A stretch of DNA of 64,000 bases from Rhinopithecimicrobium faecis (GTDB lineage: Bacteria; Bacteroidota; Bacteroidia; Sphingobacteriales; Sphingobacteriaceae), in the NCBI GenBank assembly GCA_017942165.1, contig JAGKSB010000006.1:62001-126000 (forward strand), written 5' to 3'. Positions within the stretch are counted from its first letter, which is position 1. The number at the start of each line of letters is the position of its first letter. The translations under genes and the position numbers were made by a program. Below the pieces are notes generated by a model. That model ran no database searches. It was not told where the DNA came from and worked only from the letters and a program-made list of their open reading frames with translations. Positions 45,363 to 64,000 of this stretch are shown here, in pieces.

Positions 45363-48300
45363 ATGAAACAACGATTACTTAGTTTCTTTTTAGTGTTAAC
45401 GCTTTTTGTAGGCGTAGCTTATGCACAAGGAAAAGAAGTGAATGGTAAAGTGACGGCCCTAGAGGGTGGCGCACCTATCCAAGGAGTTTCTGTTGCTGTA
45501 TTAGGAAAGCCTAATGCAACGCAAACAGATGCCGTTGGAAATTTCCGGATCCAAGCTGAAGATAATGCTGTATTAGTATTTTCTTATATTGGATATACGA
45601 CAAAAAAAGTAAATATTGGCCAATTAAAGGTGGTTAATGCACAATTAGCAGGAGAACAGAATGCGTTGCAAGAAGTTGTCGTTACTGCAATGGGCGTATC
45701 GAAAGATAAAAGAGCATTAGGATATGCGACGCAAATGGTGAAATCGGAAGATTTAACACGTGCTTCAAATACCAATATGGCTACAGCCTTACAGGGTAAA
45801 GTTTCAGGCGTCGAGGTAGCACCTTCTTCAGGTATGCCAGGAGCTTCTGCAAAAATTACAATTCGTGGTGCGCGCTCTTTTACAGGTGACAACTCACCCT
45901 TATATGTAGTTGATGGAATGCCTATTTCTTCGGCAGCAGATATGAGCACTGGAAACTCTGTTTCTGGAGCGGATTTCGCTAACCGTGGTGTGGATATTGA
46001 TCCGAATGATATTGAGTCTATTAATATCTTAAAAGGACAAGCTGCTTCTGCATTATACGGTATGCGTGCTTCCAATGGGGTTATCTTAATTACTACCAAA
46101 TCGGGTAAAGGCGCTAATAAAAAAGCGCAAATTACCTTAAATACAAATTTGGCGATGGAGAAGGTTTCTATTTTACCTGATTTCCAATCGACTTATGCAC
46201 AAGGTTCAAACGGTAAATATAACCCATTAAGCTCTAACTCTTGGGGTCCTCGTATAGGGGATTTAGCTAATGATGCAACATATGGTGGTAATACAGTTAA
46301 TAAATACACCAATGCTGATGGCTTAAAAGAAGGACAATATTATGTTCCTCAGCGTGCAAATGCTGGTTTAGACCCTTGGGCGACACCACAAGCATACAGC
46401 AATGCGAAAGATTTCTTTAATACAGGAACAACACTTTCTAACTCTTTAAATGTTGTTCAAGGTTTTGATAGAGGTCATTATTCCTTCACAATAGGTAATG
46501 CGAACTCTAAAGGTATTGTTCCTTCAACAGGAATGGGCCGTTACAACGTGAAATTATCTGCAGAGGCTAAATTATCTGATCATTTTACCACTGGTTTCTT
46601 CGGTAACTATGTGACTTCAAAAATCACCAAACAAACAGGGGCAAATAATGGAATTATGGCTACTGTTTACGGTGCACCGGCATCGTACGATTTAGCTGGC
46701 ATTCCTTCGCACATAGCTGGAGATCCATACACACAAAATACTTTCCGTGGTACTTCAGGTTTTGATGATGCTTACTGGGCGATAGAAAATAACTCCTTTA
46801 CAGAACGTTCTCAACGTTTCTTTGGTAATGCTTTCTTACGTTATGATTCAAAATTAGGAACAGATAACCAAAAATTAGTTTTAAAATACCAATTAGGTAA
46901 TGATGCTTATACAACGAACTATTCAGATATCTGGGGTTACGGGCATTCAAATTACTATGGTTCAGCTGAACAGTATAAGTATACCATCAATGAGGTTAAC
47001 TCATTAGCTACGGCTTCTTATAATTGGAAAATTTCTGATGACTTTGTATTCGATGCATTAGTGGGTAATGAGATTGTTCAAAAAACATTCAAATATGACT
47101 ACGCATATGGAGGTAACTTCAACTTCCCAGGATGGAACCATATGGATAATGCAACTGTTTACCAAGGGGCAGAATCTTTCCGTCGTACTCGTACATTCGG
47201 AACGTTCGCTAATGCTTCCTTAGCATGGAAAAATATGTTGTTCTTAAATGTAACGGGTCGTAATGATATAGTTTCCACGATGCCACGTAATAACCGTTCA
47301 TTCTTTTATCCAGCAGCCTCTTTAGGATGGGTATTCACAGAATTAGAAGGGCTTAAAAGTGATGTGTTATCGTACGGTAAAATTAGAGCTTCCTATGCAC
47401 AAGTTGGACAGTCGGCAATCTATTATCCTTCTTACTTCTCGAAACCGACTTACGGTGGTGGCTTCTCTTCAGGAACGCCTATCCAATATCCGATTGGTTC
47501 AAATAACGTTACGGCATTTACACCGAGTACGACAGTTTACGATCCAAACTTAAAACCACAAAATACGGTTTCTTATGAGTTAGGTGCTGATTTAACATTC
47601 TATTCGGGCTTATTTAACTTAGGGTATACTTTCTCACGTCAAAATGTGAAAGATCAAATCTTCCCTGTGCCTTTAGCTGGTTCAACAGGTTCAGGTGAAT
47701 ATATTACAAACGGTGGTGCTGTACATACGAATGTGCATGAGTTAACATTAAACTTCTCCCCAATTCGTAAAAGCGAAAACTGGAAATGGGATTTTGCATT
47801 TAACTTCTCGAAAATTGATAATTACGTAGATGCTTTAGCAGATGGTGTAAACTCTATTTTCTTAGGTGGTTTTGTGGAGCCTCAAGTACGTGCTTCTATT
47901 GGAGAGAAATTCCCAGTAATTTACGGTACTTCTTACTTACGTAACGATGCAGGTCAAATTGTTGTCGATAAGAAAGGTATGCCTCAAATAGGACAAGAAA
48001 CTGTTATTGGACGCGTATCTCCAGACTTCCAATTAGGATTTAATACACAAGTTGAATTCAAGAAATTCCGTTTCTCTGCGGTATTAGATTGGAAACAAGG
48101 TGGTCAAATGTACTCAGGTACTGCCGGTTTATTAGATTACTATGGGGTAACTCAGCGTTCAGCAGATCTGCGTGCGCCAGGAACGTCATTTATGTTCGAT
48201 CAACCAGCTGTTAAAGAGACAGGCTTAGATGCTTCTGGAAATATGACTTATGCAACGAATGATATTCAAATTTCTTCAGATCAAGCACAGAACTACCTAC

Positions 48301-48566
48301 AGTCTATCAACAATATCTCTGAGTCTATGATCTTTGATAACTCTTTTGTGAAATTAAGAGAGGTAACTATTGGCTACCCAGTAGTTAGCAAAAAATCAGT
48401 TAAGTTAGATGTTACAGGATTTGCTAGAAACATTTTATTATGGTCTGCAATGAAAAACTTAGACCCTGAGTCTGCACAAGGTAATAACAATATGGGGGGT
48501 GCTTTTGAGCGTTTCTCTTTACCATCTACCTCGAGCTTTGGTCTAGGTCTTAATCTTAAATTTTAA
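45363..48566 (+). CDS. SusC/RagA-family TonB-dependent outer-membrane transporter (pair 1)
   Basis: This is an outer-membrane importer for glycans, peptides or other large solutes, energised by TonB. The 1067 residues have a signal peptide (1-21, ending AYAQ), a carboxypeptidase-regulatory-like beta-sandwich (about 24-105, VNGKVTALEGGAPIQGVSV), and a TonB box-like EVVVTAMG segment near 112. The plug follows with ALQGKVSGVEV, the SusC motif ITIRGARSFTGDNSPLYVVDGMPI and ASALYGMRASNGVILITTKSGK. A 22-strand barrel ends in Phe (GLGLNLKF). The substrate is not predictable, because no hydrolase or peptidase gene accompanies it. susD follows after 11 nt. Confidence 0.95.
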   Translation: MKQRLLSFFLVLTLFVGVAYAQGKEVNGKVTALEGGAPIQGVSVAVLGKPNATQTDAVGNFRIQAEDNAVLVFSYIGYTTKKVNIGQLKVVNAQLAGEQNALQEVVVTAMGVSKDKRALGYATQMVKSEDLTRASNTNMATALQGKVSGVEVAPSSGMPGASAKITIRGARSFTGDNSPLYVVDGMPISSAADMSTGNSVSGADFANRGVDIDPNDIESINILKGQAASALYGMRASNGVILITTKSGKGANKKAQITLNTNLAMEKVSILPDFQSTYAQGSNGKYNPLSSNSWGPRIGDLANDATYGGNTVNKYTNADGLKEGQYYVPQRANAGLDPWATPQAYSNAKDFFNTGTTLSNSLNVVQGFDRGHYSFTIGNANSKGIVPSTGMGRYNVKLSAEAKLSDHFTTGFFGNYVTSKITKQTGANNGIMATVYGAPASYDLAGIPSHIAGDPYTQNTFRGTSGFDDAYWAIENNSFTERSQRFFGNAFLRYDSKLGTDNQKLVLKYQLGNDAYTTNYSDIWGYGHSNYYGSAEQYKYTINEVNSLATASYNWKISDDFVFDALVGNEIVQKTFKYDYAYGGNFNFPGWNHMDNATVYQGAESFRRTRTFGTFANASLAWKNMLFLNVTGRNDIVSTMPRNNRSFFYPAASLGWVFTELEGLKSDVLSYGKIRASYAQVGQSAIYYPSYFSKPTYGGGFSSGTPIQYPIGSNNVTAFTPSTTVYDPNLKPQNTVSYELGADLTFYSGLFNLGYTFSRQNVKDQIFPVPLAGSTGSGEYITNGGAVHTNVHELTLNFSPIRKSENWKWDFAFNFSKIDNYVDALADGVNSIFLGGFVEPQVRASIGEKFPVIYGTSYLRNDAGQIVVDKKGMPQIGQETVIGRVSPDFQLGFNTQVEFKKFRFSAVLDWKQGGQMYSGTAGLLDYYGVTQRSADLRAPGTSFMFDQPAVKETGLDASGNMTYATNDIQISSDQAQNYLQSINNISESMIFDNSFVKLREVTIGYPVVSKKSVKLDVTGFARNILLWSAMKNLDPESAQGNNNMGGAFERFSLPSTSSFGLGLNLKF

Positions 48567-48577
48567 TACATAAGACG

Positions 48578-50131
48578 ATGAAATTCATTTCAACAATAAA
48601 AAAATATTCGTGGATCTTAGCGGCTTTACCTTTAGCGCTATCTTCTGTATCTTGTTCAGAAGATGCGATGGATGAAGTTAATAAGGATATTAACCACGCA
48701 CAAGATGCACAAGCTAAATTTATTTTAGCGGACGTGATTACCCGTACAGCATTTAGTAATGCGGGTGGCGATATCAATACCTATGTTTCTACCTATGTAG
48801 AGCATGAAGCTGGTGTTCACAATCAATTATTTCTTGCCGAGACTCGTAATGGTGCGCCATCGACTTCTTCAACTTTTAACAACCCTTGGGGAAGTGTTTA
48901 TATTGCATTGAAAAATGCAAAATTAGTTATCTCAAAGTGTTCTGTTGGTGGACCGCAGGCAGGTAATGACGTAACCAAGGGTATGGGTGAAGTGCTTGCT
49001 GCATACAACTTAGCGTTGTTAACAGATATGTATGGTGATGTTCCATATAGCCAAGCGTTAACATTGGAAAATAAACAACCAGGTTTGGATAAGCAAGAGG
49101 CGATTTATAAGGAAATATTTGCCTTATTAGATGCTGCGATCGTTAATTTAGCAGGCAGAGATGCGCACGTATCTGGTGCTGCTGGAAATCACGATTTACT
49201 ATTTGCTGGAAATACTAGTAAATGGATTCAGTTTGCTTACGGCTTAAAAGCGCGTTACACAATGCGTTTACTGAAGCGTTCTACAAATGTTCAAGCAGAT
49301 ATGGCAAAGGTTATTGAATATGCTAATAAATCATTTACTTCAGCTTCTAATGAAGCAGCATTTGCTTATTACGATTCAAAAAACTTAAACCCATTATTTG
49401 ACTTTCAGTGGTCTCGTGACGGCTTAGCAGCTTCACAATCAATCTCTGATAAACTAGTTCAACGTAATGACCCACGTTTGTCGCGTGTATTTATTTCTTC
49501 TGACTGGAAGCAAATTGCTAATCCTGCAGCAGATACGTTGATGGCTCCAAATGGTGCTACGACAGAAATTCAGTACTACTACAATACGTCGGCTTTTATG
49601 TTTGCACAAACAGCACCGACTTTATTATTAAGCTACCACGAGGTATTATTCTTAAAAGCTGAGGCGATGGCTCGTTTGGGTCAAAATGCTGAACCAGTAT
49701 TAAAAGAAGCTGTAAAAGCTGGTATTGTAAATACCGAACGTTCTGTAACGGCAGCCTTCAATGCGCCTACTGTTTTAGGATATGGTGGTCTTTCGGCAGT
49801 ATCTTCGGCTATTACTCCAGCACAAGCTGACACTTATTTTGATAAACAAGTGAAGCCTCTTTTTGCTAAGAGTCCATTAAGTGAAATTGCTAATCAAAAG
49901 TATTTAGCATTCTTCGGAGCTTCAGGTGAAGCTACAGAAGCTTATAACGATGTTCGTCGTTACAAAGCTTTAGGAGAGTCTTGGATTACGCTAGCTAATA
50001 AAGGAAAATTCCCTTTACGCTTACCTTACGGTAATGATGATACGACTAATAACCCGAATGTGAATGCCGCATTTGGTGATGGTCAATATGTATATTCAGA
50101 AAATGTATGGTGGGCTGGCGGTAACCGCTAG
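48578..50131 (+). CDS. SusD/RagB-family lipoprotein (pair 1, SusD-like_2 type)
   Basis: This is a surface lipoprotein that caps SusC and binds the substrate. The 517 residues have a signal ending at a lipobox (ALSSVSC, Cys about 27) and an N-terminal TPR-like helical scaffold: DMYGDVPYSQAL (about 149-160), WIQFAYGLKARYTMRL and a late FLKAEAMARLGQ helix. The DMYGDVPYSQA motif marks the SusD-like_2 subfamily. It is cotranscribed with the SusC gene and followed by a strong terminator. Confidence 0.93.
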   Translation: MKFISTIKKYSWILAALPLALSSVSCSEDAMDEVNKDINHAQDAQAKFILADVITRTAFSNAGGDINTYVSTYVEHEAGVHNQLFLAETRNGAPSTSSTFNNPWGSVYIALKNAKLVISKCSVGGPQAGNDVTKGMGEVLAAYNLALLTDMYGDVPYSQALTLENKQPGLDKQEAIYKEIFALLDAAIVNLAGRDAHVSGAAGNHDLLFAGNTSKWIQFAYGLKARYTMRLLKRSTNVQADMAKVIEYANKSFTSASNEAAFAYYDSKNLNPLFDFQWSRDGLAASQSISDKLVQRNDPRLSRVFISSDWKQIANPAADTLMAPNGATTEIQYYYNTSAFMFAQTAPTLLLSYHEVLFLKAEAMARLGQNAEPVLKEAVKAGIVNTERSVTAAFNAPTVLGYGGLSAVSSAITPAQADTYFDKQVKPLFAKSPLSEIANQKYLAFFGASGEATEAYNDVRRYKALGESWITLANKGKFPLRLPYGNDDTTNNPNVNAAFGDGQYVYSENVWWAGGNR

Positions 50132-50659
50132 TTAAAGCACATCTTATTTTATTAAAGGCGCTTCTTTTTAAGAAGCGCCTTTTTTTTGTTACATAAATGC
50201 TGTCAATTTTTAGAATACTAATTTTACTAAACAACAAATCGCTCTCTTATAAAAGTGAAAATATGGTAATCTTAATTTTTTAGACACGCCTATTCGGTCG
50301 TATTTTTTTTTGCCATAAAAAAATTATAAGGAGATTTTTTAAATTGAAATCATTTTTTTTGATTGTTTTAAGAGGGTATACAGGGTGATAATTTTTTTAT
50401 TCTAAAAATAATGCTAATTAGGCTGATTTAATTAGAGTGCAATTTGGGGCGTTATTAGACTTGTATTTCTAGTAATGTATTAGTGGTTTTATTAGTTGCA
50501 TATTAATCTTTTGTATTTTTTTTTGAAAATATAATTGTTTGATGAATTTATTTAACATATTTTTAACATTACGATTTGCAATCTAACTTATCAACCTAGG
50601 CACTACGTGCCTGCTAAATAATATGGATGGCAATTTTACTTACTAACAAACCATTATAT
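50132..50659 (+). promoter_or_regulatory. Upstream region and promoter of susCD pair 2
   Basis: This 528-bp gap is very AT-rich. After the terminator it holds TTG (50535-50537), a spacer of exactly 20 nt and TATTTTTA (50558-50565), one base from TAnnTTTG. The same arrangement precedes pair 3. A 6-bp hairpin AGGCAC/GTGCCT (50598-50612) lies about 25-40 nt after the predicted start. The stretch between 50190 and 50530 shows no gene or repeat that I recognise. Confidence 0.55.
50154..50187 (+). terminator. Terminator after susCD pair 1
   Basis: AAAGGCGCTTCTT (50154-50166) pairs with AAGAAGCGCCTTT (50170-50182), followed by T. Confidence 0.92.
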
Positions 50660-53611
50660 ATGAAAGAAAAATTACTCTATTTTTTCTTTGCAATGCTGTT
50701 TACCATTGGTACATCATATGCACAAGAAAGATCAGTTACAGGCAAGGTAACTTCCACGGAAACTGGGAAAGGTCTAGCGGATGTAACTGTCTTAGTTCAA
50801 GGCTCAAGAACCGCTGTTAAGACTGATTCAGATGGGAATTTCACGATTAAAACAGATAAAAATAATTTAATATTTCGTTCTGTTGGATTTGATGAGAAAG
50901 TTATCAGCTTAGGACAATCTAATCAAGTTTCTGTAAACTTAGAAACCACTAATTCTGAATTAGAAGAAGTTGTTGTTGTGGGTTATGGTACTGGCCGTAA
51001 AGCTTCCAATGTTGTAGGTACAGTATCTCGTGTCTCAGCAAAAGAAATTGGTGGTAGACCTCGTGCAAATGCGTTAGAGTCTTTACAAGGAAAGGTACCA
51101 GGATTACAAATTTTCACATCTTCTGGGGAGCCTTCTGCAACGCAATCTATCCGTTTGAATGGAGCTGGATCATTAGGAGCTTCTTCGACCCCATTATTTG
51201 TGTTAGATGGTATTCCTGTTGAATCAGGATCCATCGTCAGTATGAACCCGGAGGATTTTGAAAGTATCACTGTTTTAAAAGATGCTTCAGCGACATCTAT
51301 TTATGGATCAAGAGCGGCGAATGGTGTTATTTATATGACTTCTAAGAAAGGTAAAATTGGTGATCGTGCTACAGTTTCTTTAAGATCTCAAATTGGGTGG
51401 TCAAAATTAGCAACTTCAAAAATGCAAGACAATCTAATGAATACGAAGGAATTGCAAAATTTTTGGTTAGAAACTGGTTATCGTACACAAGCGCAATTAG
51501 ATGCAATTAATGCTACATATCCTAATGATTATAAGTGGAAGGGGTTTTATTTTAAAGAGAATACGCCTTATCAACAGCATGATTTAAATATTTCTGGAGG
51601 TTCCCAGAAGACACAATATTATTTATCTACATCTTATTTAGATGAAGAGGGAGTAATGTATCGTTCAGGATTTGACCGTATCACTTTACGCTCAAATATT
51701 ACTAGTAAAATTAATGATTGGATGCGTGTAGGTTTAAACCTTTCTGGAGGTTATGATCGCCGTCAAACGAATCAATACACGTCAAATAGTTTAAACGGTG
51801 GCTTGTCCCTATTAGCTTTACCGTGGTATACGCCTATTGATGCTGATGGAAATGAATATTACGATAAGCAAATCCCAGGATTAGGAAGATATTCTCCTCG
51901 TTATTTAGCCGATAAATTACCTTCAATGGGTAAAAATCAACAGTTTAATCCTAATTTCTTTGTTGAACTTCAACCATTTGAGGGTTTGACAATTAAATCA
52001 CAAGGTGGTATGGATTTTTATAATTACCGTACATCTGCAAGAAGATTACCTTCTTATTTACCAAATATTGGTAATGGAACGGCAACGGAAGAGTTTGATC
52101 AAGCGTATACTCGTACATTAACGAATACAATTGAGTATAAATTTAATGTTAATAACATTCATAATTTCATCCTATTAGGAGGTCAAGAGTCGGTAGATTT
52201 TAGACAAGAAGGATTTAGTTCTTATGGTGTTGGCTTAACGGATGATAGATTAACATTATTGTCTAATACAACGTCTGGATATACTGTAGGCCAAACGAGT
52301 TCAGAATATAGTTTTAATTCACTTTTCGGTCGTTTAAGTTACTCTTTACACGATAAATATAGTGTTGACTTAACGATACGTCAAGATGCTTCTTCACGTT
52401 TTGGTAAGGATTTAAATAATTCAACATTCTGGTCTATTGGTGGAATGTGGAATGCTAAGAAAGAATCTTTTTTGGCGGATGTAAGTCAAGTTAATGAGTT
52501 ACGTGTTAGAGCTAGTTACGGTACTACTGGAAATGCATCTATTGGTAATTATGCACATTTAGCTACAGTGGCTGGATCTCAATATAATGGTCAAACTGGT
52601 TGGGGCTTAAATTCTCCAGGAAACCCTCAGTTAGGTTGGGAAGCTCAAAACTTATTAACTATTGGTGTTGCAGGTACCTTCTTTAAAGGATTAAATATTG
52701 ATGTTGATTACTTTAATAGAAATACAAAAAACATGCTTGTTGATGTACCTTTTGCATATACTTCAGGATTTTCAACTGTTAAGACTAATGTCGGTGTATT
52801 GAATAACAAGGGTATTAATTTACAATTAAGCTATAACTTAGTTCGTAATAATGACTTCTATTTTACTCCTTCCATTACTTTAGGCTACGTAAAACAAGAG
52901 ATTACAGAACTTTTCCAAGGAAAAGATTTTTGGATTGTTCCTAATACTGGAGTAAGTTGGGCTGTTGGTAAACCAGTTTCTTACTTTTATCCAATTCAAA
53001 AGGGTGTAAATCCTGAAACTGGATTGGTTGAGTGGTATAAGCCTGGAGATGATATTACAGTAACTAATAAGGATCCAAATAATGTTACTACTTCATTTAG
53101 TTCTGCGGCTTTACAACAAAGTACAGGAATTAATAGATACGCACCTTTAAACGGTGGTTTCGGTTTTAATACAGGCTGGAAAGGTTTGTATTTGGAAAGT
53201 TATTTCACATTTTCTTCTGGAAAATATTTAATCAATAATGATAGCTATTTCTTTGAAAATGCTTTTGGATTTGCTGGATATAATCAATCTAAAGGCATAT
53301 TAGATTACTGGAAAGAACCAGGTGATGTTACGCGTTATCCGAAATATGGTCAACCAAAACAGTTTGACTCTGCATTAATTGAAAATGCTTCTTTTATCCG
53401 TTTGAAAAATATAACAGTTGGGTATGAAATTCCGAAGTCAATATTAAAACGTTCCAAATTTTTTACAGGAGCAAAAATATATTACACAGGAAGAAACTTG
53501 TTGACATTCACGAAGTATAGTGGGCCAGATCCAGAGATTGATGCAAACTTAACAACAGGAGCGAATCCGAATACAAAACAATCTGTCATCGGTATTCAAT
53601 TATTATTTTAA
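50660..53611 (+). CDS. SusC/RagA-family TonB-dependent outer-membrane transporter (pair 2)
   Basis: The start is the ATG at 50660, which gives a proper signal peptide (MKEKLLYFFFAMLFTIGTSYAQ). An upstream start would add 11 residues before it. The 983 residues carry the CarboxypepD_reg-like domain (VTGKVTSTETGKGLADVTVLVQG), the TonB-box-like EEVVVVGYGTG, the plug with LESLQGKVPGLQIFTSSGEPS and PLFVLDGIPVESGSIVSMNPEDFESITVLKDASATSIYGSRAANGVI, and the barrel ending IGIQLLF. The cargo is unknown. Codon use in the barrel is more AT-rich than in pair 1, which may mean separate acquisition. Confidence 0.95.
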   Translation: MKEKLLYFFFAMLFTIGTSYAQERSVTGKVTSTETGKGLADVTVLVQGSRTAVKTDSDGNFTIKTDKNNLIFRSVGFDEKVISLGQSNQVSVNLETTNSELEEVVVVGYGTGRKASNVVGTVSRVSAKEIGGRPRANALESLQGKVPGLQIFTSSGEPSATQSIRLNGAGSLGASSTPLFVLDGIPVESGSIVSMNPEDFESITVLKDASATSIYGSRAANGVIYMTSKKGKIGDRATVSLRSQIGWSKLATSKMQDNLMNTKELQNFWLETGYRTQAQLDAINATYPNDYKWKGFYFKENTPYQQHDLNISGGSQKTQYYLSTSYLDEEGVMYRSGFDRITLRSNITSKINDWMRVGLNLSGGYDRRQTNQYTSNSLNGGLSLLALPWYTPIDADGNEYYDKQIPGLGRYSPRYLADKLPSMGKNQQFNPNFFVELQPFEGLTIKSQGGMDFYNYRTSARRLPSYLPNIGNGTATEEFDQAYTRTLTNTIEYKFNVNNIHNFILLGGQESVDFRQEGFSSYGVGLTDDRLTLLSNTTSGYTVGQTSSEYSFNSLFGRLSYSLHDKYSVDLTIRQDASSRFGKDLNNSTFWSIGGMWNAKKESFLADVSQVNELRVRASYGTTGNASIGNYAHLATVAGSQYNGQTGWGLNSPGNPQLGWEAQNLLTIGVAGTFFKGLNIDVDYFNRNTKNMLVDVPFAYTSGFSTVKTNVGVLNNKGINLQLSYNLVRNNDFYFTPSITLGYVKQEITELFQGKDFWIVPNTGVSWAVGKPVSYFYPIQKGVNPETGLVEWYKPGDDITVTNKDPNNVTTSFSSAALQQSTGINRYAPLNGGFGFNTGWKGLYLESYFTFSSGKYLINNDSYFFENAFGFAGYNQSKGILDYWKEPGDVTRYPKYGQPKQFDSALIENASFIRLKNITVGYEIPKSILKRSKFFTGAKIYYTGRNLLTFTKYSGPDPEIDANLTTGANPNTKQSVIGIQLLF

Positions 53612-53638
53612 TAATTCCCTTATTCAAATTAACTATTC

Positions 53639-55117
53639 ATGAGAAAATTAAAGTATATAGCTTCTGCCTTATTTATTTCTTTAGCAGTAAGCTCTTGTAA
53701 CCTAGATAAATTTCCGGAAAACTCAATTTCACGCGATCAAGCATTTGAAAAAGTATCGGATGCGAAAAATTGGGATACAAATTTCTATGCACAATTAAGA
53801 GCGCGCGTTTACGGATATTATTGGTACGTTTCAGATATTCAAGCTGACCAATTAAATGCTACCCTTGACTTTGGTAACAGTGTTGGTGCACCTCACCGTT
53901 GGTCAGATGATTTTAACTCTGATAACTATGAGATTAGAGATCAATACCTAAACTACTATAGCGCATTAAAAAATGTCAATTTATCAATTGAAAAATTCCC
54001 TACAATTCCAACAACTACTGAGGCGGAAAAGAAAGAATTGAATCAATACTTAGGCGATGCGTATTTAACACGCGCTTATTATAATTTCAAATTAGCAAAC
54101 CGCTATGCAAAGGCATATGATGCTAAGACAGCTGACACAGATTTAGGAATACCTTTGGTACTAACCTATGACATTTATGAATTACCTTCACGTTCAACTC
54201 TTAAGCAGACATACGATCAAATTCTTTTAGATTTAGGTCAGGCTAAAACCTTATTAGCTGGTGTAGCAGGTACGCCAGGTTCTAAATATTATACCATTGA
54301 TGTTGTAAATGCTTTAGAAGCGAGAATAAAATTATATATGGGTGATTGGGCTGGTGCTAAAGCGGCAGCAGATGCCGTTATTGCAACGAATAAATACGTG
54401 TTATATAATACCGCAGAAACTGTAAAAGCGATGTGGGCTGAAGATAAAACGAATGAGGATATTTTGATTTCATCAATATCATTAGTTGAAGGACCTAATC
54501 AAAATTCTGTTTATCATGGTTATGAAGCGGCAACCAAAACTTATAGACCGAGTTTTGTTCCTACACAAGGTGTTATAAACACATTTGAGGATTCTGATTT
54601 TAGAAAAAATGTTTATTTTAAAATGGTTGATCTATATCAGGGTGGAAAGTCATATCCCGGTTACATCGTGAGTAAGTATCCCGGAAATTCAGCGCTTCAA
54701 TCGTCTACAGCTAGTAACGTTAATACGCCTAAAATTTTCAGAATTGCAGAATCTTACTTGATTTCTTCTGAAGCAGCCTTCCAAGCAGGAAATTCTGCAG
54801 CTGCGCTAACTAGATTAAATGAATTACGTGTTGCACGTGGATTGAAAGCTTTAGTTGGTGTTACTGGTGACGCATTACTAAGAGAAATTAAAAGTGAACG
54901 TACACGTGAATTAGCTTTCGAAGGTTTCCGTCTTGATGATTTAAAACGTTGGAAAGAAGGTTTTACACGTAAAGATCCGCAGAATCTTGATTTCTTAAGT
55001 ACGGGTGAAGGTTATACGACTAAAACTGTACAAGCAAATGATAATAAATTTGTTTGGGGAATACCTGGTTATGATATGATCTTAAATAAAAATCTGGTTC
55101 AAAATCCAGGATGGTAG
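53639..55117 (+). CDS. SusD/RagB-family lipoprotein (pair 2)
   Basis: The 492 residues have a lipoprotein signal (lipobox AVSSC, Cys about 20) and typical SusD features. DAYLTRAYYNFKLANRYA lies in the helical TPR part (about 138-155). IAESYLISSEAAFQAGNSAAALTRLNELRVARGL lies near 380-413, then ERTRELAFEGFRLDDLKRWKEGF, the diagnostic SusD C-terminal block. It starts 27 nt after its SusC partner and ends in a strong terminator. Confidence 0.94.
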   Translation: MRKLKYIASALFISLAVSSCNLDKFPENSISRDQAFEKVSDAKNWDTNFYAQLRARVYGYYWYVSDIQADQLNATLDFGNSVGAPHRWSDDFNSDNYEIRDQYLNYYSALKNVNLSIEKFPTIPTTTEAEKKELNQYLGDAYLTRAYYNFKLANRYAKAYDAKTADTDLGIPLVLTYDIYELPSRSTLKQTYDQILLDLGQAKTLLAGVAGTPGSKYYTIDVVNALEARIKLYMGDWAGAKAAADAVIATNKYVLYNTAETVKAMWAEDKTNEDILISSISLVEGPNQNSVYHGYEAATKTYRPSFVPTQGVINTFEDSDFRKNVYFKMVDLYQGGKSYPGYIVSKYPGNSALQSSTASNVNTPKIFRIAESYLISSEAAFQAGNSAAALTRLNELRVARGLKALVGVTGDALLREIKSERTRELAFEGFRLDDLKRWKEGFTRKDPQNLDFLSTGEGYTTKTVQANDNKFVWGIPGYDMILNKNLVQNPGW

Positions 55118-55382: not shown

Positions 55383-58300
55383 ATGAAACAAAAATTACTC
55401 AGTCTTCTTTTAGGCGGTATGATACTTTCAACAGTTTCATTCGCTCAAGAGAAAAAAATTTCTGGGAGAGTTACCAATGCCGAAGGTAAGGGACTTCCTG
55501 GTGTAACTGTCTTAGTACAAGGTGCGAATCAAGCTACTCAAACAGATGCTGAAGGTAACTACACTTTCAATAGCATAGCTACGGGAAAAACATTGATTTT
55601 CCGATCGATAGGATTTTCTGATCAAATATTAAAAGTAGGAGCTAATTCTTCTATTTTTAACGTTAATTTGACGAGTGCTGACTCGCAGTTAGATGAGGTT
55701 ATTGTAACAGGTTACGGTACGCAAAAGAAACGTGAAGTAACGGGTTCCATCGCATCTATTAAAGGGGAAGCTTTCCGCGATGTGGCAGGACCTTCTATTG
55801 ACAAAGCTTTACAAGGGCAAGCTGCCGGTGTACAAGCTGCAAATACTTCCGGTATTTTGGGTCAACCAGCAAAAATCCGTATCCGTGGTACAAACTCCAT
55901 TTCAAGTTCTTCAGATCCATTATATGTAGTTGATGGGGTGCCTTACATATCTGGTGACCAAGGGGCAAATACAGCTTCCAACCCATTATCCGATATCAAT
56001 CCGAATGATATCGCTAATGTAGAGGTATTAAAAGATGGTGCTGCAACAGCAATCTATGGTTCTAGAGCTTCCAATGGGGTAATTTTAATTACTACTAAAA
56101 AAGGAAAAGCGGGTGCTCCAAAGTTAACATACAACAACTGGTTTGCACTTGCTACGCCATCAAAATACTACGATGTTTTAGATGCTAAGCAGTTTATTGA
56201 TATCACGAATGAAAAGTTAACTAACGTAGGACGTCCAGAAGCTGCATTCGAAACGATTGATCCAACGTCAAAAAGTGTGATTGACAAAGATTGGCAGAAA
56301 GAAGTATTCCGTACTGCTTTTCAAATGAATCATGCGGTATCTATGTCCGGAGCGACGGAACAAACGAACTATTTCTTCTCTGCAGGTTACGCAAATTTAG
56401 AAGGTATTTCGGATGCTAATACGCAGAAAAAATATACTGTACGTGGTAAGTTAGAGCAAAAAGCATTCAACGATCGTTTTACTATCGGCTTAAATACGGC
56501 TATTGCACATACGACCAATAGAGGATTTAACAACTCAGAAGCTGCTTTATCTGGAAACGTGGGTGCGGCATTATTTGCTTTCCCGAATGCGCCAGCAATG
56601 TGGGCTGATGGCTCATACAACTTATCAGCTGATGGTACATCGTTAGGTCCTGCGGCCAATAAATTGCCAATTTATGGTAACTATACCAACCAACGTTGGG
56701 TATTAGATAATAATATTTATAAAAATGCTTCCTTAAATATTAACGGTTCGGCATTTGCGAATATTGAAATTATCAAAGGCTTAAACTTAAGAACTACGAT
56801 TGGTACGCAATTAATCAATGGTGAGGATTATTTATACTATGCACCAGGTCATGGTGATGGTAAATCTGTAAATGGTCGTATTTATCAATACTCCATCCCT
56901 AACTTCCGTTACAACTGGCAAAATACATTAAACTATGATACGCAATTTGGCGCGAATCGTATTAATGTAATCGTTGGTACTGAAAACCAAAAAACAAGAA
57001 ATAGAAATTTCTTTGCACATGGCTACGGTCTTTCGAATACTTACTTTGGAGAAAATGAAAATATTATCTCTGGTTCATTAACAAATCAGCTATTAGGTGG
57101 TGGCGCTTCTGAAAATGCTTTAGCATCGATTTTTGGTCGTGCTAACTATGTGTTTAAAGACCGTTATTTTATCTCAGGAACTTTGAGAAGAGATAAGATT
57201 TCTTCCCTTCCTTACGGCAAACAATCCGCAGTTTTACCAGGAGCTTCCATTGGTTGGGATGTTGCTAAAGAAGAGTTTTTCAAATCTTCTTTCGTAAGTC
57301 AATTTAAAGTACGTGGGGGTTACGCAAAAGTAGGTAATACTGAAATTGGTAATTATCCTTATGCTGGTTTATTCGGTGCACGTAACTATGGTGACTACAA
57401 TGGTATTTCATACAACCAAGCAGGTAATGCGGAGTTGAAATTTGAAACTAGTAAGAAAATAAACATTGGTTTAGATTTAGCTTTCTTACAAGACCGTATT
57501 ACATTTTCTGCTGACTACTTCAAGAATGATATCGATAATATGATTCTTGCTGTTCCTATGGCTCCATCATTAGGGGTGCCTCAGAACTTTATCAACCAAA
57601 ACGTTGGTAAAATGTTCAATAAAGGTTTTGAATTCGTATTAGGTGGTACTGTGATTGATAAAAACGGATTTAACTGGAATGCAAGCTTAAATGCTACTTT
57701 CGTTAAAAACGAAATTTCACAATTAGTAGACGGAAATGATATCGTTACTCCATACCACATTAACCGTGTAGGTGAGTCGATTGGTTCATTCTTTGGATAT
57801 GAATTCTCAGGTGTAAATAGCGCAAATGGAAACGCGATTTACAAAAAAGCTGATGGCTCTTTTGTACAGTCCGTATTCAATTCGACTAGCTATGCTGTTT
57901 ATGATGCAACAAAAAAAGATGATGTTAGTCAAAAAGCTACTTTAGGATATGACGATAAGCGTGTGTTAGGAATTTCTACACCTACATGGTATGGTGGTTT
58001 CAATAATACATTTACTTATAAAGGCTTTGACTTAAACGTATTTTTAACGTACTCTGGAGGTAATAAGGTTTATAACCAAACACGTCAAGAGATCTTAAAT
58101 AATATGAATTTTGCCAATGCTGGTACGGAATTATTAGATCGTTGGACTACACCAGGTCAAGAGACAGATGTACCTAAATTAGCGTACGGTTTCGATAACT
58201 CTATTAACTTAAATGGAAGTTTAAATAGCCGTTTCTTAGAAAATGGATCTTTCTTACGTGTACAGAATATTGGTTTAGGCTATGCTGTTCAAGATGGTGC

Positions 58301-58493
58301 ATTCTTAAGAAGCTTAAAAGCTACAAACTTAAGGTTCTTTGCAAATGTTCAAAATGCCTTTGTATTCACGAAATATACAGGTATTGATCCAGAGGTAGCA
58401 AATAGCTCAACAACAAATTCTAGAGCTAGTTTAGATAACCGTTCAAATCCTGTTCCTAGAACATTTACTATTGGTCTTAATGTTGGTTTCTAA
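55383..58493 (+). CDS. SusC/RagA-family TonB-dependent outer-membrane transporter (pair 3)
   Basis: The 1036 residues have a signal peptide (1-21, SFAQ), a CarboxypepD_reg-like domain (ISGRVTNAEGKGLPGVTVLVQG), TonB-box-like DEVIVTGYGTQ, and the plug with ALQGQAAGVQAANTSG, IRIRGTNSISSSSDPLYVVDGVPY and AIYGSRASNGVILITTKKGK. The barrel ends FTIGLNVGF. It is close in layout to the pair 2 protein but clearly not a recent duplicate. The susD gene follows after 10 nt. Confidence 0.95.
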   Translation: MKQKLLSLLLGGMILSTVSFAQEKKISGRVTNAEGKGLPGVTVLVQGANQATQTDAEGNYTFNSIATGKTLIFRSIGFSDQILKVGANSSIFNVNLTSADSQLDEVIVTGYGTQKKREVTGSIASIKGEAFRDVAGPSIDKALQGQAAGVQAANTSGILGQPAKIRIRGTNSISSSSDPLYVVDGVPYISGDQGANTASNPLSDINPNDIANVEVLKDGAATAIYGSRASNGVILITTKKGKAGAPKLTYNNWFALATPSKYYDVLDAKQFIDITNEKLTNVGRPEAAFETIDPTSKSVIDKDWQKEVFRTAFQMNHAVSMSGATEQTNYFFSAGYANLEGISDANTQKKYTVRGKLEQKAFNDRFTIGLNTAIAHTTNRGFNNSEAALSGNVGAALFAFPNAPAMWADGSYNLSADGTSLGPAANKLPIYGNYTNQRWVLDNNIYKNASLNINGSAFANIEIIKGLNLRTTIGTQLINGEDYLYYAPGHGDGKSVNGRIYQYSIPNFRYNWQNTLNYDTQFGANRINVIVGTENQKTRNRNFFAHGYGLSNTYFGENENIISGSLTNQLLGGGASENALASIFGRANYVFKDRYFISGTLRRDKISSLPYGKQSAVLPGASIGWDVAKEEFFKSSFVSQFKVRGGYAKVGNTEIGNYPYAGLFGARNYGDYNGISYNQAGNAELKFETSKKINIGLDLAFLQDRITFSADYFKNDIDNMILAVPMAPSLGVPQNFINQNVGKMFNKGFEFVLGGTVIDKNGFNWNASLNATFVKNEISQLVDGNDIVTPYHINRVGESIGSFFGYEFSGVNSANGNAIYKKADGSFVQSVFNSTSYAVYDATKKDDVSQKATLGYDDKRVLGISTPTWYGGFNNTFTYKGFDLNVFLTYSGGNKVYNQTRQEILNNMNFANAGTELLDRWTTPGQETDVPKLAYGFDNSINLNGSLNSRFLENGSFLRVQNIGLGYAVQDGAFLRSLKATNLRFFANVQNAFVFTKYTGIDPEVANSSTTNSRASLDNRSNPVPRTFTIGLNVGF

Positions 58494-58503
58494 TTGACTA
58501 AAA

Positions 58504-60114
58504 ATGAAAAAACTATTAAAATTTAACTATAAATCAGCATTCGCCGTGTCTACACTAGCTTGTGCTTTAATCTTCACTTCTTGTGAAAAATTTACCGAGT
58601 TATCACCTTTATCATCCTTAGATGAGAAAAATGCTTTCTCTACAGCTCAAAATGTAGAATTAGCCATGAACGGTGTATACTGGCAAGCAGCAGTAGGCTA
58701 CTATGATCCAGGAACTGGATTAACGACAGGTCGTGGATACCCTTTCGGGGGAGCTTCTATTGAGCAAGGTGAGATGCGTGGTGAAGATATGATGAATGTG
58801 CAAGCATTCTACCAGTTTACCTATGAGTCGACTTACACAATTTCTACAGCGAATAACGTCAATATGTGGGAGCAGTTATATGCCCTTATCAACCAGGCGA
58901 ATGTTACAATTGAAGGTGTGAAGGGAGCAATTGCTTCAGGTGTAATCTCTCAAGCTACGGGTAATGCTTATATCGGAGAATGTTTATTCTTACGTGCAAT
59001 TGCGCATCATGAATTATTATTAAACTTCTCGCGTCCATATGTTGATGGTAAGGGTTCGAATTTAGGCGTTCCTTATCGTACAACGGCCATTTCTACGCCT
59101 TCATCTATTGAAGAAGCTAAAAAGGCTACACGTGGTACGGTTGCTGAAGCTTATACTAACTTGTTAAAAGATTTAGATGAGGCTGAAAGCTTATTGCCAG
59201 ATACAAGATCAGCGAAGGATGTTTCTATCTCTAGAGCAACCAAAGGAGCTGCTATCGCACTTAAAACGCGTGTGAAATTACACCAAGAGGATTACGATGG
59301 CGTAATTGCTGAGGCAAATAAATTAGGTGCTAATGCTACAGGTAATTTTACTTCAGCTATTGGTAACTATAAATTAGAAGCTTCACCGGTAACACCGTTT
59401 ACAAGCTATAAAAATAATACGGAATCTATTTTTTCAGTTGCCCAAAGTTCAGCATCTAATGGTGGTGTGAATGGTGCGATTTCCAATATGTTTGGAGCTT
59501 CTTCGTTAAGTGGTCGTGACTTAATTTCTACAAGTCCGCTCTTATATAACCAAGATTTCTGGAAAGCTGATGATATCAGAAAAACAGATCTTCATTTACG
59601 CCAAAATACAGGAAACTACAAGTTTGTATTTTCTAAGAAATACTCCCGTATAGGTATCAATGATGATTGGAATCCATTAATTCGTTATGCCGAAGTATTA
59701 TTAAATGCTGCGGAAGCATACGCATATAAGGGTAACAATGCACAAGCTTTAAATTTATTGAATGCTGTTCGTAACCGTGCTGTAAAGGCAGCTGACCGTT
59801 ACACGACAGCTCCAGCTGATTTAAAGTTAGCAATTTACCAAGAACGTCGTATTGAGTTTACAGCAGAAGGTAAGCGTTGGGGAGATATCCACCGTTTAGC
59901 ATTAAACTCTACCTATGGTACGAAAGGAATTCCTGCGAAAGTATTAGCTACACAGTTGACTGCAGCTGGTTTAGATAATTATACGATTGGGGTTACTATT
60001 ACGCCTAGTAAAGCTGCTATTCCTTATGCTGATAATCGTTTTGTATGGCCACTTCCAACATCTGAGATGAATTCAAATCCAGTGTTAAGAGGTGAGCAGA
60101 ATCCAGGTTATTAA
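58504..60114 (+). CDS. SusD/RagB-family lipoprotein (pair 3)
   Basis: The 536 residues have a lipoprotein signal (lipobox FTSC, Cys about 27) and the SusD fold: GECLFLRAIAHHELLLNFSRPYV (about 160-182), an inserted ligand-binding region, LIRYAEVLLNAAEAYAYKGNNAQALNLLNAVRNRA (about 396-430), and YQERRIEFTAEGKRWGDIHRLAL. The end RFVWPLPTSEMNSNPVLRGEQNPGY is a classical SusD C-terminus. It is the last gene of the three susCD pairs. Confidence 0.95.
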   Translation: MKKLLKFNYKSAFAVSTLACALIFTSCEKFTELSPLSSLDEKNAFSTAQNVELAMNGVYWQAAVGYYDPGTGLTTGRGYPFGGASIEQGEMRGEDMMNVQAFYQFTYESTYTISTANNVNMWEQLYALINQANVTIEGVKGAIASGVISQATGNAYIGECLFLRAIAHHELLLNFSRPYVDGKGSNLGVPYRTTAISTPSSIEEAKKATRGTVAEAYTNLLKDLDEAESLLPDTRSAKDVSISRATKGAAIALKTRVKLHQEDYDGVIAEANKLGANATGNFTSAIGNYKLEASPVTPFTSYKNNTESIFSVAQSSASNGGVNGAISNMFGASSLSGRDLISTSPLLYNQDFWKADDIRKTDLHLRQNTGNYKFVFSKKYSRIGINDDWNPLIRYAEVLLNAAEAYAYKGNNAQALNLLNAVRNRAVKAADRYTTAPADLKLAIYQERRIEFTAEGKRWGDIHRLALNSTYGTKGIPAKVLATQLTAAGLDNYTIGVTITPSKAAIPYADNRFVWPLPTSEMNSNPVLRGEQNPGY

Positions 60115-61203: not shown

Positions 61204-62052
61204 ATGTTGATAGAAACACTTAACCTTTATAATAGTTCAGGTATGTTGAATTCAGATTTTACAAATTCTCATCAAGTAAATTATGACTTGTTTAAGCTGG
61301 GAGATGAGAAGGCCTTTACCTACTTTTATAATTTTTATTATAAATTATTCGTCTATCGTGCTGCGCGTTATGTGAAAGATGATGTGGTGTCGAATACCAT
61401 TGCTCAGGAAGCTTTTCTAAGACTGTGGGTGATGCGTAGTATTATTGTTGATCTTGACCATATGCTTTCTTTTTTAAATCAGCAGGTCAAGGAAGCTGTT
61501 AAATTATTCTATAAGCACAGTGCGAGTCGCTTTCATCGTGCTATGCTACGTATTGACGCCATTGAGAATTTTCATGACTTCTTTTATTGTGATTCCATGG
61601 AACCCGTAGAAGATGATGTCTATTATATCGATGAGCTCGCTGAAGAGAAAAGGCTACAGATAAAAAAAATTAATAGCTTAATTCCGAATATCAGTGAGGA
61701 GAACCAACTGTATATCCGCTTATGTTTGAAATTTAGTTTTAACTATGAGCGAATAGCCTATTATTTAGGAGGTATTTCTGATTATGAAGTGGGGCTGAAT
61801 GTTGAGAAATGTATTCTAAAGCTAAAGATTCTACTCACTAATGCGAGTAATATGAAGGCCTTACAGGTGCAAAAGCCCCTGCTGGCTGAAGGGGAATTTT
61901 CTGAGGATCAGATCAAAATTTTTCAACTCCGATATGATTTAAATTACTCCTTTGAAAAGATCGCTGACTGCCTAAAATTGAATAATGAAGAGGTGAGGAA
62001 AGCGTTTGTACAAGCCCATTTATCCTTAAAGGCAGGAGCGAAGTTAAACTAA
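61204..62052 (+). CDS. Atypical sigma-70 family (ECF-like) factor paired with a Cas12f-like protein
   Basis: The 282 residues are long for an ECF sigma factor (usually about 170-200). Region 2 is seen at about 29-80: LFKLGDEKAFTYFYNFYYKLFVYRAARYV, then NTIAQEAFLRLW in place of the usual AEDIVQEVFLRLW. Two helical segments follow that each look like a region-4 helix-turn-helix: about 151-213 (ISEENQLYIRLCLKFSFNYERIAYYL) and about 233-276 (FSEDQIKIFQLRYDLNYSFEKIADCLKLNNEEVRKAF). No anti-sigma (FecR) gene is present. The Cas12f-like gene starts 11 nt later, so the two are almost certainly cotranscribed. Another ATG (61243) would shorten it by 13 residues. I infer that it is recruited by the RNA-guided partner rather than by its own promoter sequence. 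Confidence 0.8.
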   Translation: MLIETLNLYNSSGMLNSDFTNSHQVNYDLFKLGDEKAFTYFYNFYYKLFVYRAARYVKDDVVSNTIAQEAFLRLWVMRSIIVDLDHMLSFLNQQVKEAVKLFYKHSASRFHRAMLRIDAIENFHDFFYCDSMEPVEDDVYYIDELAEEKRLQIKKINSLIPNISEENQLYIRLCLKFSFNYERIAYYLGGISDYEVGLNVEKCILKLKILLTNASNMKALQVQKPLLAEGEFSEDQIKIFQLRYDLNYSFEKIADCLKLNNEEVRKAFVQAHLSLKAGAKLN

Positions 62053-62063
62053 ATTTAAAATGT

Positions 62064-63161
62064 ATGTCGAAAGAAAATACCATCGTACTGACGCGTAAGA
62101 TTCAAGTTTTTATAGACTGTGATGAATTGGAACAGAAAAGAGCCTATTATAAGATGATTTATCTCTGGCAGAATCTCTGCTTCCGAGCAGCTAACTATAT
62201 CTTTACGCATCAGTATATTCAAGATCAACTAAAGGAGTTTTTGTATTTAAAAGATGAATTTAAGGTGAAGCTGACGAACTATTTACAAGGGCAGGAGGGC
62301 ATTTTTAATACCTCTCGCATGAATACTACCTATCGTCTATTGTCCGAGAAATATAAAGGTATATTGCCTTCGGATATATTTTCCAATCTTAATAACACGC
62401 TTATTAAGCATTATAACTCCGAAAAGCAAGATTATTGGAAAGGTGTCAAGTCGCTAAGGAATTATAAAAGAAATATCCCTATTCCCTTTTCAGCGCGATC
62501 GATTAGATTTAAAGTGAATGAAAATTCCCATAATTTTAAGTTTTCGCTGTTCAAAATTCCCTTTCAAACGTATTTAGGAAAAGATAAAACCGATAAAAAG
62601 ATGCTTCTTCAGCGGGTGATTAAAGGTTCTTTGAAAATGTGTTCCTCCAGCCTCAAGATAGATAAGAATAAAATCTACTTGATTGTATCCTTCGAAATGG
62701 AAAAAGATAACCATGTCTTAGATAAAAACATCATTGCTGAAGCTGACCTATCACTGGAATTTCCTATTACCGTAAAAATTGGTGCTGATCATTATCAAAT
62801 AGGCAATAAGGAAGAATATCTCCACCGCAGGCTGGCCATACAATCTGCCAGACAGCGTTTATTAAAGGGAGCAACCTATAATCGGGGAGGGAATGGTAGA
62901 AAGCGGAAGCTGAAAAGTCTAGTCGATTACGCTCAGAAAGAGAAAAATTATGTCAATAATAAACTCCATAATTATTCTAAACGCTTGATTGAATTATGCG
63001 TCCGCTATCAGGTAGGAACAATCCTGCTGGTGAATCAAGATCAAAAGGAGAAATTTGCCCGTGAGGAAGGATTTATTCTTAGAAATTGGAGCTTTTATGG
63101 CTTAAAAGAAAAAATATATTATAAAGCAGAAAAAGCGGGCATATATATTATTGAAGAATAA
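62064..63161 (+). CDS. Nuclease-dead Cas12f/TnpB-like RNA-guided DNA-binding protein (predicted)
   Basis: The 365 residues have the Cas12f/TnpB order. A wedge and REC-like part occupies about 1-215 (RKIQVFIDCDELEQKRAYYKMIYLWQNLCFRAANYIF; later SLKMCSSSLKIDKNKIYLIVSF). RuvC-I is ADLSLEFPITVKIG (Asp228), followed by the GGNGRKRKLKSLVDYAQKEKNYVNNKLHNYSKRLIELCVRY helix. The RuvC-II strand is TILLVNQ, where the catalytic Glu expected in VEDL is Asn324. The protein ends at YYKAEKAGIYIIEE, just before the CxxC zinc ribbon and the RuvC-III Asp, which are missing. Cleavage is therefore not expected, while guide and DNA binding may remain. There is no TnpA, Cas1/Cas2 or CRISPR array nearby. It is paired with a sigma factor upstream and a structured RNA downstream. 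A plain TnpB remnant is the alternative, but the intact frame and operon argue against decay. Confidence 0.8.
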   Translation: MSKENTIVLTRKIQVFIDCDELEQKRAYYKMIYLWQNLCFRAANYIFTHQYIQDQLKEFLYLKDEFKVKLTNYLQGQEGIFNTSRMNTTYRLLSEKYKGILPSDIFSNLNNTLIKHYNSEKQDYWKGVKSLRNYKRNIPIPFSARSIRFKVNENSHNFKFSLFKIPFQTYLGKDKTDKKMLLQRVIKGSLKMCSSSLKIDKNKIYLIVSFEMEKDNHVLDKNIIAEADLSLEFPITVKIGADHYQIGNKEEYLHRRLAIQSARQRLLKGATYNRGGNGRKRKLKSLVDYAQKEKNYVNNKLHNYSKRLIELCVRYQVGTILLVNQDQKEKFAREEGFILRNWSFYGLKEKIYYKAEKAGIYIIEE

Positions 63162-63167
63162 TATAGC

Positions 63168-63284
63168 TATACGCTGAGGTTGCTTGTGACACCGTAGGGT
63201 GAGGTTCTTGTTAGCACTCACTAAATTACAGCTTATCGTAATACACAATATAGGACGGGCTTTTAATATAATTTTTAAAAAAAA
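63168..63284 (+). ncRNA. Predicted single guide RNA of the Cas12f-like protein
   Basis: The RNA begins near the Cas12f-like stop codon. Elements in order are: GGUUGCUUGUGACACC (63178-63193), a short GGU/ACC stem that resembles the GGCUGCUUGCAUCAGCC element of Cas12f tracrRNA as I recall it; a GUGAG/CUCAC hairpin (63199-63203 with 63217-63221, 13-nt loop) followed by UAAAUU; and an AUUAC/GUAAU hairpin (63225-63229 with 63238-63242, 8-nt loop), which would correspond to a fused antirepeat and repeat. After ACAC (63243-63246), the segment AAUAUAGGACGGGCUUUUAA (63247-63266) is the most likely guide. Transcription would stop at 63285-63309. The boundaries and the guide register are inferred, not shown. 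Confidence 0.55.
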
Positions 63285-63309
63285 GGAGAATTAATTCTCC
63301 TTTTTTTTT
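63277..63309. terminator. Bidirectional terminator after the guide RNA and the methyltransferase gene
   Basis: An A run (63277-63284), the perfect palindrome GGAGAATTAATTCTCC (63285-63300) and a T run (63301-63309) serve both strands. The methyltransferase stop codon (63291) lies inside the palindrome. Confidence 0.9.
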
Positions 63310-64000
63310 GGTTCCATGCGAACTAAATATTGGTCATTCTCATCCTCAAAGAGTACTTGAACGACCCAATCCATCTCATGGGCAATTTCTATCAGTTTTT
63401 TTTGATCAATATATAACCAGCGGAAAGGAGCTCCTTGTTCTCCATTATAGGCATAATGATAGGAGATCTCTCCGAAATAGTGTGCTGGACGGGGAACCTC
63501 ATATTCATCGTATAAATAAGAAATATCCGAAGAGTCAAAGAGTAATTGGCCACGATCCGTAAGGAGGGTCTTCGCAAAGGTTAGCAGCTCCCTAAAGCCG
63601 TCTATGGTTCCCGTAAGACCTATTCCATTCATCAAAAATAATAAGGTGTCATATTTCTTATCGGTAAGATTAAAGAAATCCTGCTCCAAAATATGCTTTA
63701 CGCCACGCTGCTGCATAATCGTGCAGGCAATAGCGGAAAGCTCAATGGCCTCTACATCAACCTTCTTATCTTGCAGATAGAGACTGTGGCAGCCAGCACC
63801 GGCCCCCACATCAAGCACCTTCCCATCGGTTAAGGAGAGCGCTATATATTCTAACTCCGTAAAATCTTCTTCCTCACGGAAGAATACCTCCACAGGCATC
63901 TCTTCTGTGTCGCCGTAGCTGCTATGTAATAAAAGTGGCTTTTGTGCCGCTTCAGGGTTTTTATAATAAGCAAGTAATGCTTCTCCGTAAACGTCTTTAA
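63291..64000 (-). CDS. Class I SAM-dependent methyltransferase, N-terminus beyond the window
   Basis: An ATG at 63899 gives 202 residues. The frame stays open to the window edge, and the upstream codons read as good protein (DVYGEALLAYYKNPEAAQKPLLLHSSYGDTEE just before that Met). The real start is therefore probably outside, and this is a 5'-truncated gene. Motif I of the SAM-binding Rossmann fold is GKVLDVGAGAGCHSLYL, followed by VEAIELSAIACTIMQQRG and TLLFLMNGIGLTG. The substrate is unknown. It converges on the guide-RNA region and shares its terminator. Confidence 0.85.
   Translation of the reverse strand, partial: KDVYGEALLAYYKNPEAAQKPLLLHSSYGDTEEMPVEVFFREEEDFTELEYIALSLTDGKVLDVGAGAGCHSLYLQDKKVDVEAIELSAIACTIMQQRGVKHILEQDFFNLTDKKYDTLLFLMNGIGLTGTIDGFRELLTFAKTLLTDRGQLLFDSSDISYLYDEYEVPRPAHYFGEISYHYAYNGEQGAPFRWLYIDQKKLIEIAHEMDWVVQVLFEDENDQYLVRMEPKKKEN

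Follow-up and report, generated by a model that had tools for sequence, protein, structure and literature searches.

Does the two-gene operon at positions 61,204-63,309 of a 64,000-nucleotide (nt) stretch of Rhinopithecimicrobium faecis DNA (GenBank assembly GCA_017942165.1, contig JAGKSB010000006.1, positions 62,001-126,000; hereafter the window) start transcription at sites chosen by an RNA? The operon encodes an ECF-like sigma factor and a nuclease-dead Cas12f-like protein (dCas12f), and a preliminary description, made from the letters of the DNA alone, had read it as an RNA-guided transcription system. That proposal is supported by the pairing of homologues of both proteins in one PDB entry, by the regular company of the sigma gene in most related loci, and by a conserved, covarying RNA scaffold. 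We consider it likely that the operon activates transcription under RNA guidance, in the manner of the dCas12f-RpoE system. The genome comprises 3.14 Mb in 34 contigs (G000), and the window corresponds to G000:C31:62001-126000.

Both open reading frames (ORFs) were found intact where the preliminary description had placed them, on the plus strand and 11 nt apart (Table 1). The sigma protein scored 45.6 bits against TIGR02985 (cut-off 126.4) and 37.1 bits against TIGR02937 (cut-off 42.9), below threshold in both cases, which bears out its classification as an atypical ECF-like sigma factor at the level of sequence. Its best PDB match is the 'RpoE' chain of entry 9n9q (E 1.3e-30); as this alignment begins at residue 26, the true start may be a downstream in-frame ATG, for example codon 14. 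The best PDB match of the Cas12f-like protein is the 'Nuclease-deactivated Cas12f' chain of the same entry, and entries 9n9c and 9n9m are titled as dCas12f-guide RNA and dCas12f-guide RNA-DNA complexes, respectively, in line with the dead Cas12f proteins and cognate sigma factors that the preliminary description had invoked. We take the system in 9n9c, 9n9m, 9n9o and 9n9q to be the RNA-guided transcription by dCas12f-sigmaE that Hoffmann and colleagues reported in 2025; our literature search returned no paper on dCas12f-sigma transcription, and the wider literature may hold some. Both window proteins are homologous to those of this system over most of their length, with the same fold and a dead nuclease, at 47-49% identity in the structure alignment.

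The Cas12f- or TnpB-like nature of the second protein was confirmed by a PADLOC Cas12f match (E 7e-59), a score of 66.2 bits against guided_TnpB (below the cut-off of 100) and top fold matches to dCas12f and Cas12f structures, the comparison that the preliminary description had named as a check. Its RuvC site, described as inactivated, was compared with 120 listed homologues out of 516 found, the window's own protein being among the 120. The RuvC-II Glu is absent, the stretch reading LLVNQ, with Asn324 present in 114 of those 120. The chain stops at residue 365. None of the 120, this protein included, carries a CxxC pair within the final 110 residues, and the Zn-ribbon and RuvC-III are therefore lacking. 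At the RuvC-I position, located by alignment with active Cas12f, it retains Asp (Asp228, codon 62745-62747), whereas 9n9c and 108 of the 120 carry Ser; among the 120, Asp recurs only in P0002, an identical-looking record. The site is thus changed only in part, with two of the three catalytic residues gone; Asp228 may have arisen by reversion or by chance. From the losses in RuvC-II, Zn-ribbon and RuvC-III we infer that the protein cannot cut DNA.

When the stretch 3' of the dCas12f gene was compared with related loci by blastn, a conserved block emerged, of which 131 copies, the window's included, were recovered by a loose pattern. An alignment of 23 single-guide copies (A2; the window is one of the 23) served as the basis of covariance model R1. 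Two stems show compensating changes in A2, in which 98.0% of cells pair and 28 cells are changed on both sides; this both-sides count and the covariation score were reached by none of 500 shuffles. R1 matches the window (E 2.7e-13) and 76 of 79 related loci (exceptions L053, L093 and L098), among them 56 of the 59 loci that contributed no sequence to the model. Within its own genome the window scaffold is the only strong copy (E 5e-13), the next match (G000:C24:71566, E 0.037) covering the first hairpin only. Folded alone, the scaffold forms a third hairpin immediately before ATACACAAT. As the scaffold of relatives ends in a similar ATACAAC, beyond which the sequence differs between lineages, the guide is expected to start at 63250; its length of ~17 nt is set by analogy with the 17 nt common to the guides of five Flavobacteriaceae loci. 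A guide RNA thus appears to be encoded at the locus in the form of the predicted scaffold. The non-coding stretch had also been called structured and strongly terminated: the fold of 63162-63310, terminator included, was equalled or bettered by 4 of 200 shuffles, and the 3' end holds an exact 32-nt palindrome with A and T tracts, at which a simple terminator scan listed none. Rfam gave four matches in the window locus, all sub-threshold.

Of the 79 related loci, 75 have a sigma gene 5' of dCas12f; it overlaps dCas12f or is at most 17 nt away in 72 and stands at 106-750 nt in three. Among the Pedobacter and Flavobacteriaceae loci read, most have a scaffold directly 3' of dCas12f, the arrangement seen in the window. 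Exact repeat units, three or more at a spacing of 55-80 base pairs (bp), occur in 19 of the 79, and in 13 of these the main period is 65 or 66 bp (up to 24 units in Parapedobacter luteus); the other six, with main periods of 57, 63, 75 or 79 bp, may be something else. CRISPR-like arrays of 65-66 bp period with several interspersed scaffold copies were seen in L034:11277-14832, L039, L061, L072 and others, and four tandem scaffold copies 3' of dCas12f in Olivibacter sp. XZL3 (L099:9909-10494). No second guide or hidden array was detected in the window's genome as a repeat end at up to 2 mismatches; at 3 mismatches there were 11 matches, against 3 in the reversed control. The absence of a transposase, an adaptation gene and an array, as earlier described, holds near the operon, domains having been checked in 14 of the 57 window ORFs of at least 100 residues.

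By its homologous proteins, gene order and guide scaffold, the locus is, as far as such comparison reaches, a member of the dCas12f-RpoE kind, and activation of transcription would follow by homology. The guide RNA would come from the 3' end of the operon transcript and be bound by dCas12f, which would then open DNA matching the ~17-nt guide. The sigma factor, carried by dCas12f, would recruit RNA polymerase to that DNA, so that the guide rather than a promoter motif would set the start of transcription. If so, a small RNA dictates transcription start in a bacterium with no need of a promoter motif, a mechanism that would be nature's equivalent of CRISPR activation and from which compact tools could be drawn. 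To such systems the window would add a copy with one guide and a scaffold located to base resolution; its peculiarities are Asp228, that single guide and a missing target.

Several results weigh against this reading. Asp228 sits at RuvC-I in an otherwise dead Cas12f. The A2 pairs with double changes (141 of 500 shuffles) and the pair types (491 of 500) do not exceed shuffles, and in the fold of the full RNA with guide and terminator the third scaffold hairpin is replaced by other pairing. No convincing guide target was found in the 34 contigs of the window's own genome, which also sets the window apart from the dCas12f-RpoE system. Guide nt 1-18 gave 4 non-self matches at up to 3 mismatches (2 in the reversed control), and guide nt 5-22 gave 1 at the same tolerance (control 1). 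The best guide match was 13/18 in the upstreams of the sigma gene and of 46 SusC-family genes, of which 45 score above the family cut-off and one falls short of it. Thirty shuffled guides reached 13 to 15 of 18 in the same 47 upstreams, and three of the four nt 1-18 matches fall inside ORFs, one of them (2 mismatches) in an ORF named by eye as ATP-synthase-alpha-like, the fourth lying in a terminator-like hairpin. The guide sequence thus gives no support for control of the adjacent SusC/SusD genes, nor did it match viral contigs exactly. A self-target just upstream of the sigma gene (13/18), which none of 60 shuffles had reached in a smaller earlier control, was rejected when 80 of 2000 shuffles and 15 of 327 window tiles reached it.

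The missing target speaks for the main rival, a decaying copy whose proteins and scaffold are intact and whose guide has drifted off its target, so that nothing is regulated in this strain. The system seems to be often lost in the genus, as dCas12f was matched in 54 of 93 same-genus genomes, with several copies fragmentary or interrupted by stops; and most Sphingobacterium copies are more distant from the window protein than those of Parapedobacter (61-64%). Both ORFs, the scaffold stems and the terminator are nevertheless all intact, and a target could sit in the gaps between the contigs or in other DNA, or require fewer matching bases than were searched for. We regard decay as unlikely. What an apparently orphan guide does is a question that the locus raises.

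A TldR-like repressor, with the dead nuclease blocking a promoter and the sigma gene a mere neighbour, is still less probable. TldR proteins, nuclease-dead relatives of TnpB, act as repressors (PMC13418256), and the window protein would resemble them in being nuclease-dead, RNA-guided and domesticated; its sub-threshold guided_TnpB match points the same way. TldR descends from TnpB; the best matches of the window protein, in libraries not known to include a TldR model, are dCas12f and Cas12f, and the available portion of that source names no paired sigma factor. The sigma gene is kept beside dCas12f across the related loci, and homologues of both proteins share one solved complex entry. A still active Cas12f nuclease for defence, to which the PADLOC match, the Asp at RuvC-I and the arrays of some relatives might point, is scarcely credible, because the complete RuvC triad and Zn-ribbon of active Cas12f are lacking and no array repeat was found in the genome at up to 2 mismatches; the window locus is not an immune Cas12f, and it differs from the type V-F nucleases (Al3Cas12f, AsCas12f, CnCas12f1, OsCas12f) in RuvC-II, Zn-ribbon and RuvC-III, in its sigma partner and in having no array in view near the operon.

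Returning to the RNA-guided activator, candidate targets were found in relatives. Six Flavobacteriaceae genomes were searched with 16 nt of guide common to five of them, allowing up to 2 mismatches, which gave 24 matches (reversed control 5): five guide genes, one second guide gene, 12 in one conserved element, five in ORFs and one (L135) between ORFs. In the sixth genome (L110) the pattern differs from its own guide; without it, eight element matches in five genomes remain. Seven of the 12 element matches (five of eight without L110) are followed, at 0.2-0.64 kb, by the start of a SusC-like ORF, the SusC-like match at L124 being weak (E 0.001); of the others, four reach a contig end and L132 shows no SusC-like ORF in the stretch available. 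Guides of Flavobacteriaceae relatives have matches upstream of susC-like genes; for the window's guide no convincing match was found in its own genome. In all 12 element matches the base preceding the position of guide nt 1 is G, the copies being homologous and hence not independent. A preprint by Hoffmann and colleagues from 2025 reportedly describes a 5'-G motif beside the target and a start set by the distance from the guide's site. Elsewhere, a guide-like stretch of Sphingobacterium alkalisoli (L057), searched in its same-genus genome G002, returned itself and three 3-mismatch matches (control 3), and the Parapedobacter luteus array region had four other matches in its own genome, none clearly before susC.

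The conserved element is a leader of ~130 nt with three arms, the middle arm being the guide sequence; it was observed before susC-like genes of Flavobacteriaceae at L121, L122, L124-L126, L127, L128, L130, L132, L134, L136 and L137. Single folds and inspection by eye indicate that the middle arm can pair with the 5' arm; its alternative pairing, with the 3' arm, covaries, with double changes in seven pairs (reached by none of 500 shuffles; pair types by 38 of 500). Rfam gave no match to the leader in the eight loci scanned. The leader also stands just upstream of the sigma gene in six of the 79 related loci (Table 1). We tentatively suggest, as a possible but doubtful extension, that guides copy the middle arm of the leader before susC, that initiation guided to this arm would yield a transcript without the first arms and so bypass an attenuator, that the operon behind the same leader forms a self-regulating loop in some relatives, and that the window copy, with its single guide, Asp back at RuvC-I and a guide off the susC leaders, is a rewired branch with another target. 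The match of guide to own leader counts against this mechanism: the two agree at no more than 11 of 14 positions around GGGCTCT in L069, L071 and L090, and at only 9-10 of 14 in L079, L107 and L109. Whether guides read a conserved leader before nutrient-uptake genes is a further question raised here.

Table 1. Features of the window locus and of leader elements in related loci and in the window's genome; plain coordinates are window positions.
Feature	Position	Strand	Basis or remark
ECF-like sigma factor gene, 282 aa	61204..62052	+	ORF, TIGR profiles, alignment to RpoE of 9n9q
Nuclease-dead Cas12f-like protein, 365 aa	62064..63161	+	9n9q homology, fold matches, PADLOC, RuvC alignment
Guide-RNA scaffold with conserved stems (predicted)	63174..63249	+	covariance model R1, 58.2 bits; covariation
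Predicted guide, ~17 nt	63250..63266	+	end of scaffold conservation and length analogy
Perfect palindrome, A and T tracts	63277..63308	.	likely two-way terminator shared with convergent gene
Convergent gene, methyltransferase-like	63291-63998	minus	Pfam matches below cut-off
Three SusC/SusD pairs upstream of operon	45363-50131, 50627-55117, 55383-60114		
Leader before sigma-dCas12f operon	L069:9008-9138, L071:9003-9133, L079:9002-9132, L090:8999-9129, L107:5717-5845, L109:8945-9073		
Related leader element L217	G000:C6:69058-69196	minus	was in model R3
Related leader element L218	G000:C15:1549-1693	minus	not in model R3; E 1.7e-8

The two related leaders of the window's genome, L217 and L218, adjoin small ORFs, with a transposase-like ORF (by eye) behind L217. 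As candidate targets they were rejected: neither middle arm matches the guide, and no SusC-like ORF was noticed beside them by eye. Plasmid records matched 21 times, all below 60% identity (~22% among the eight listed), and phage records twice, at 21-30%. At its 3' end the described region (to 63309) overlaps the last codons of the convergent methyltransferase-like gene, the end of which is covered by the palindrome, so that this element likely terminates both convergent transcripts.
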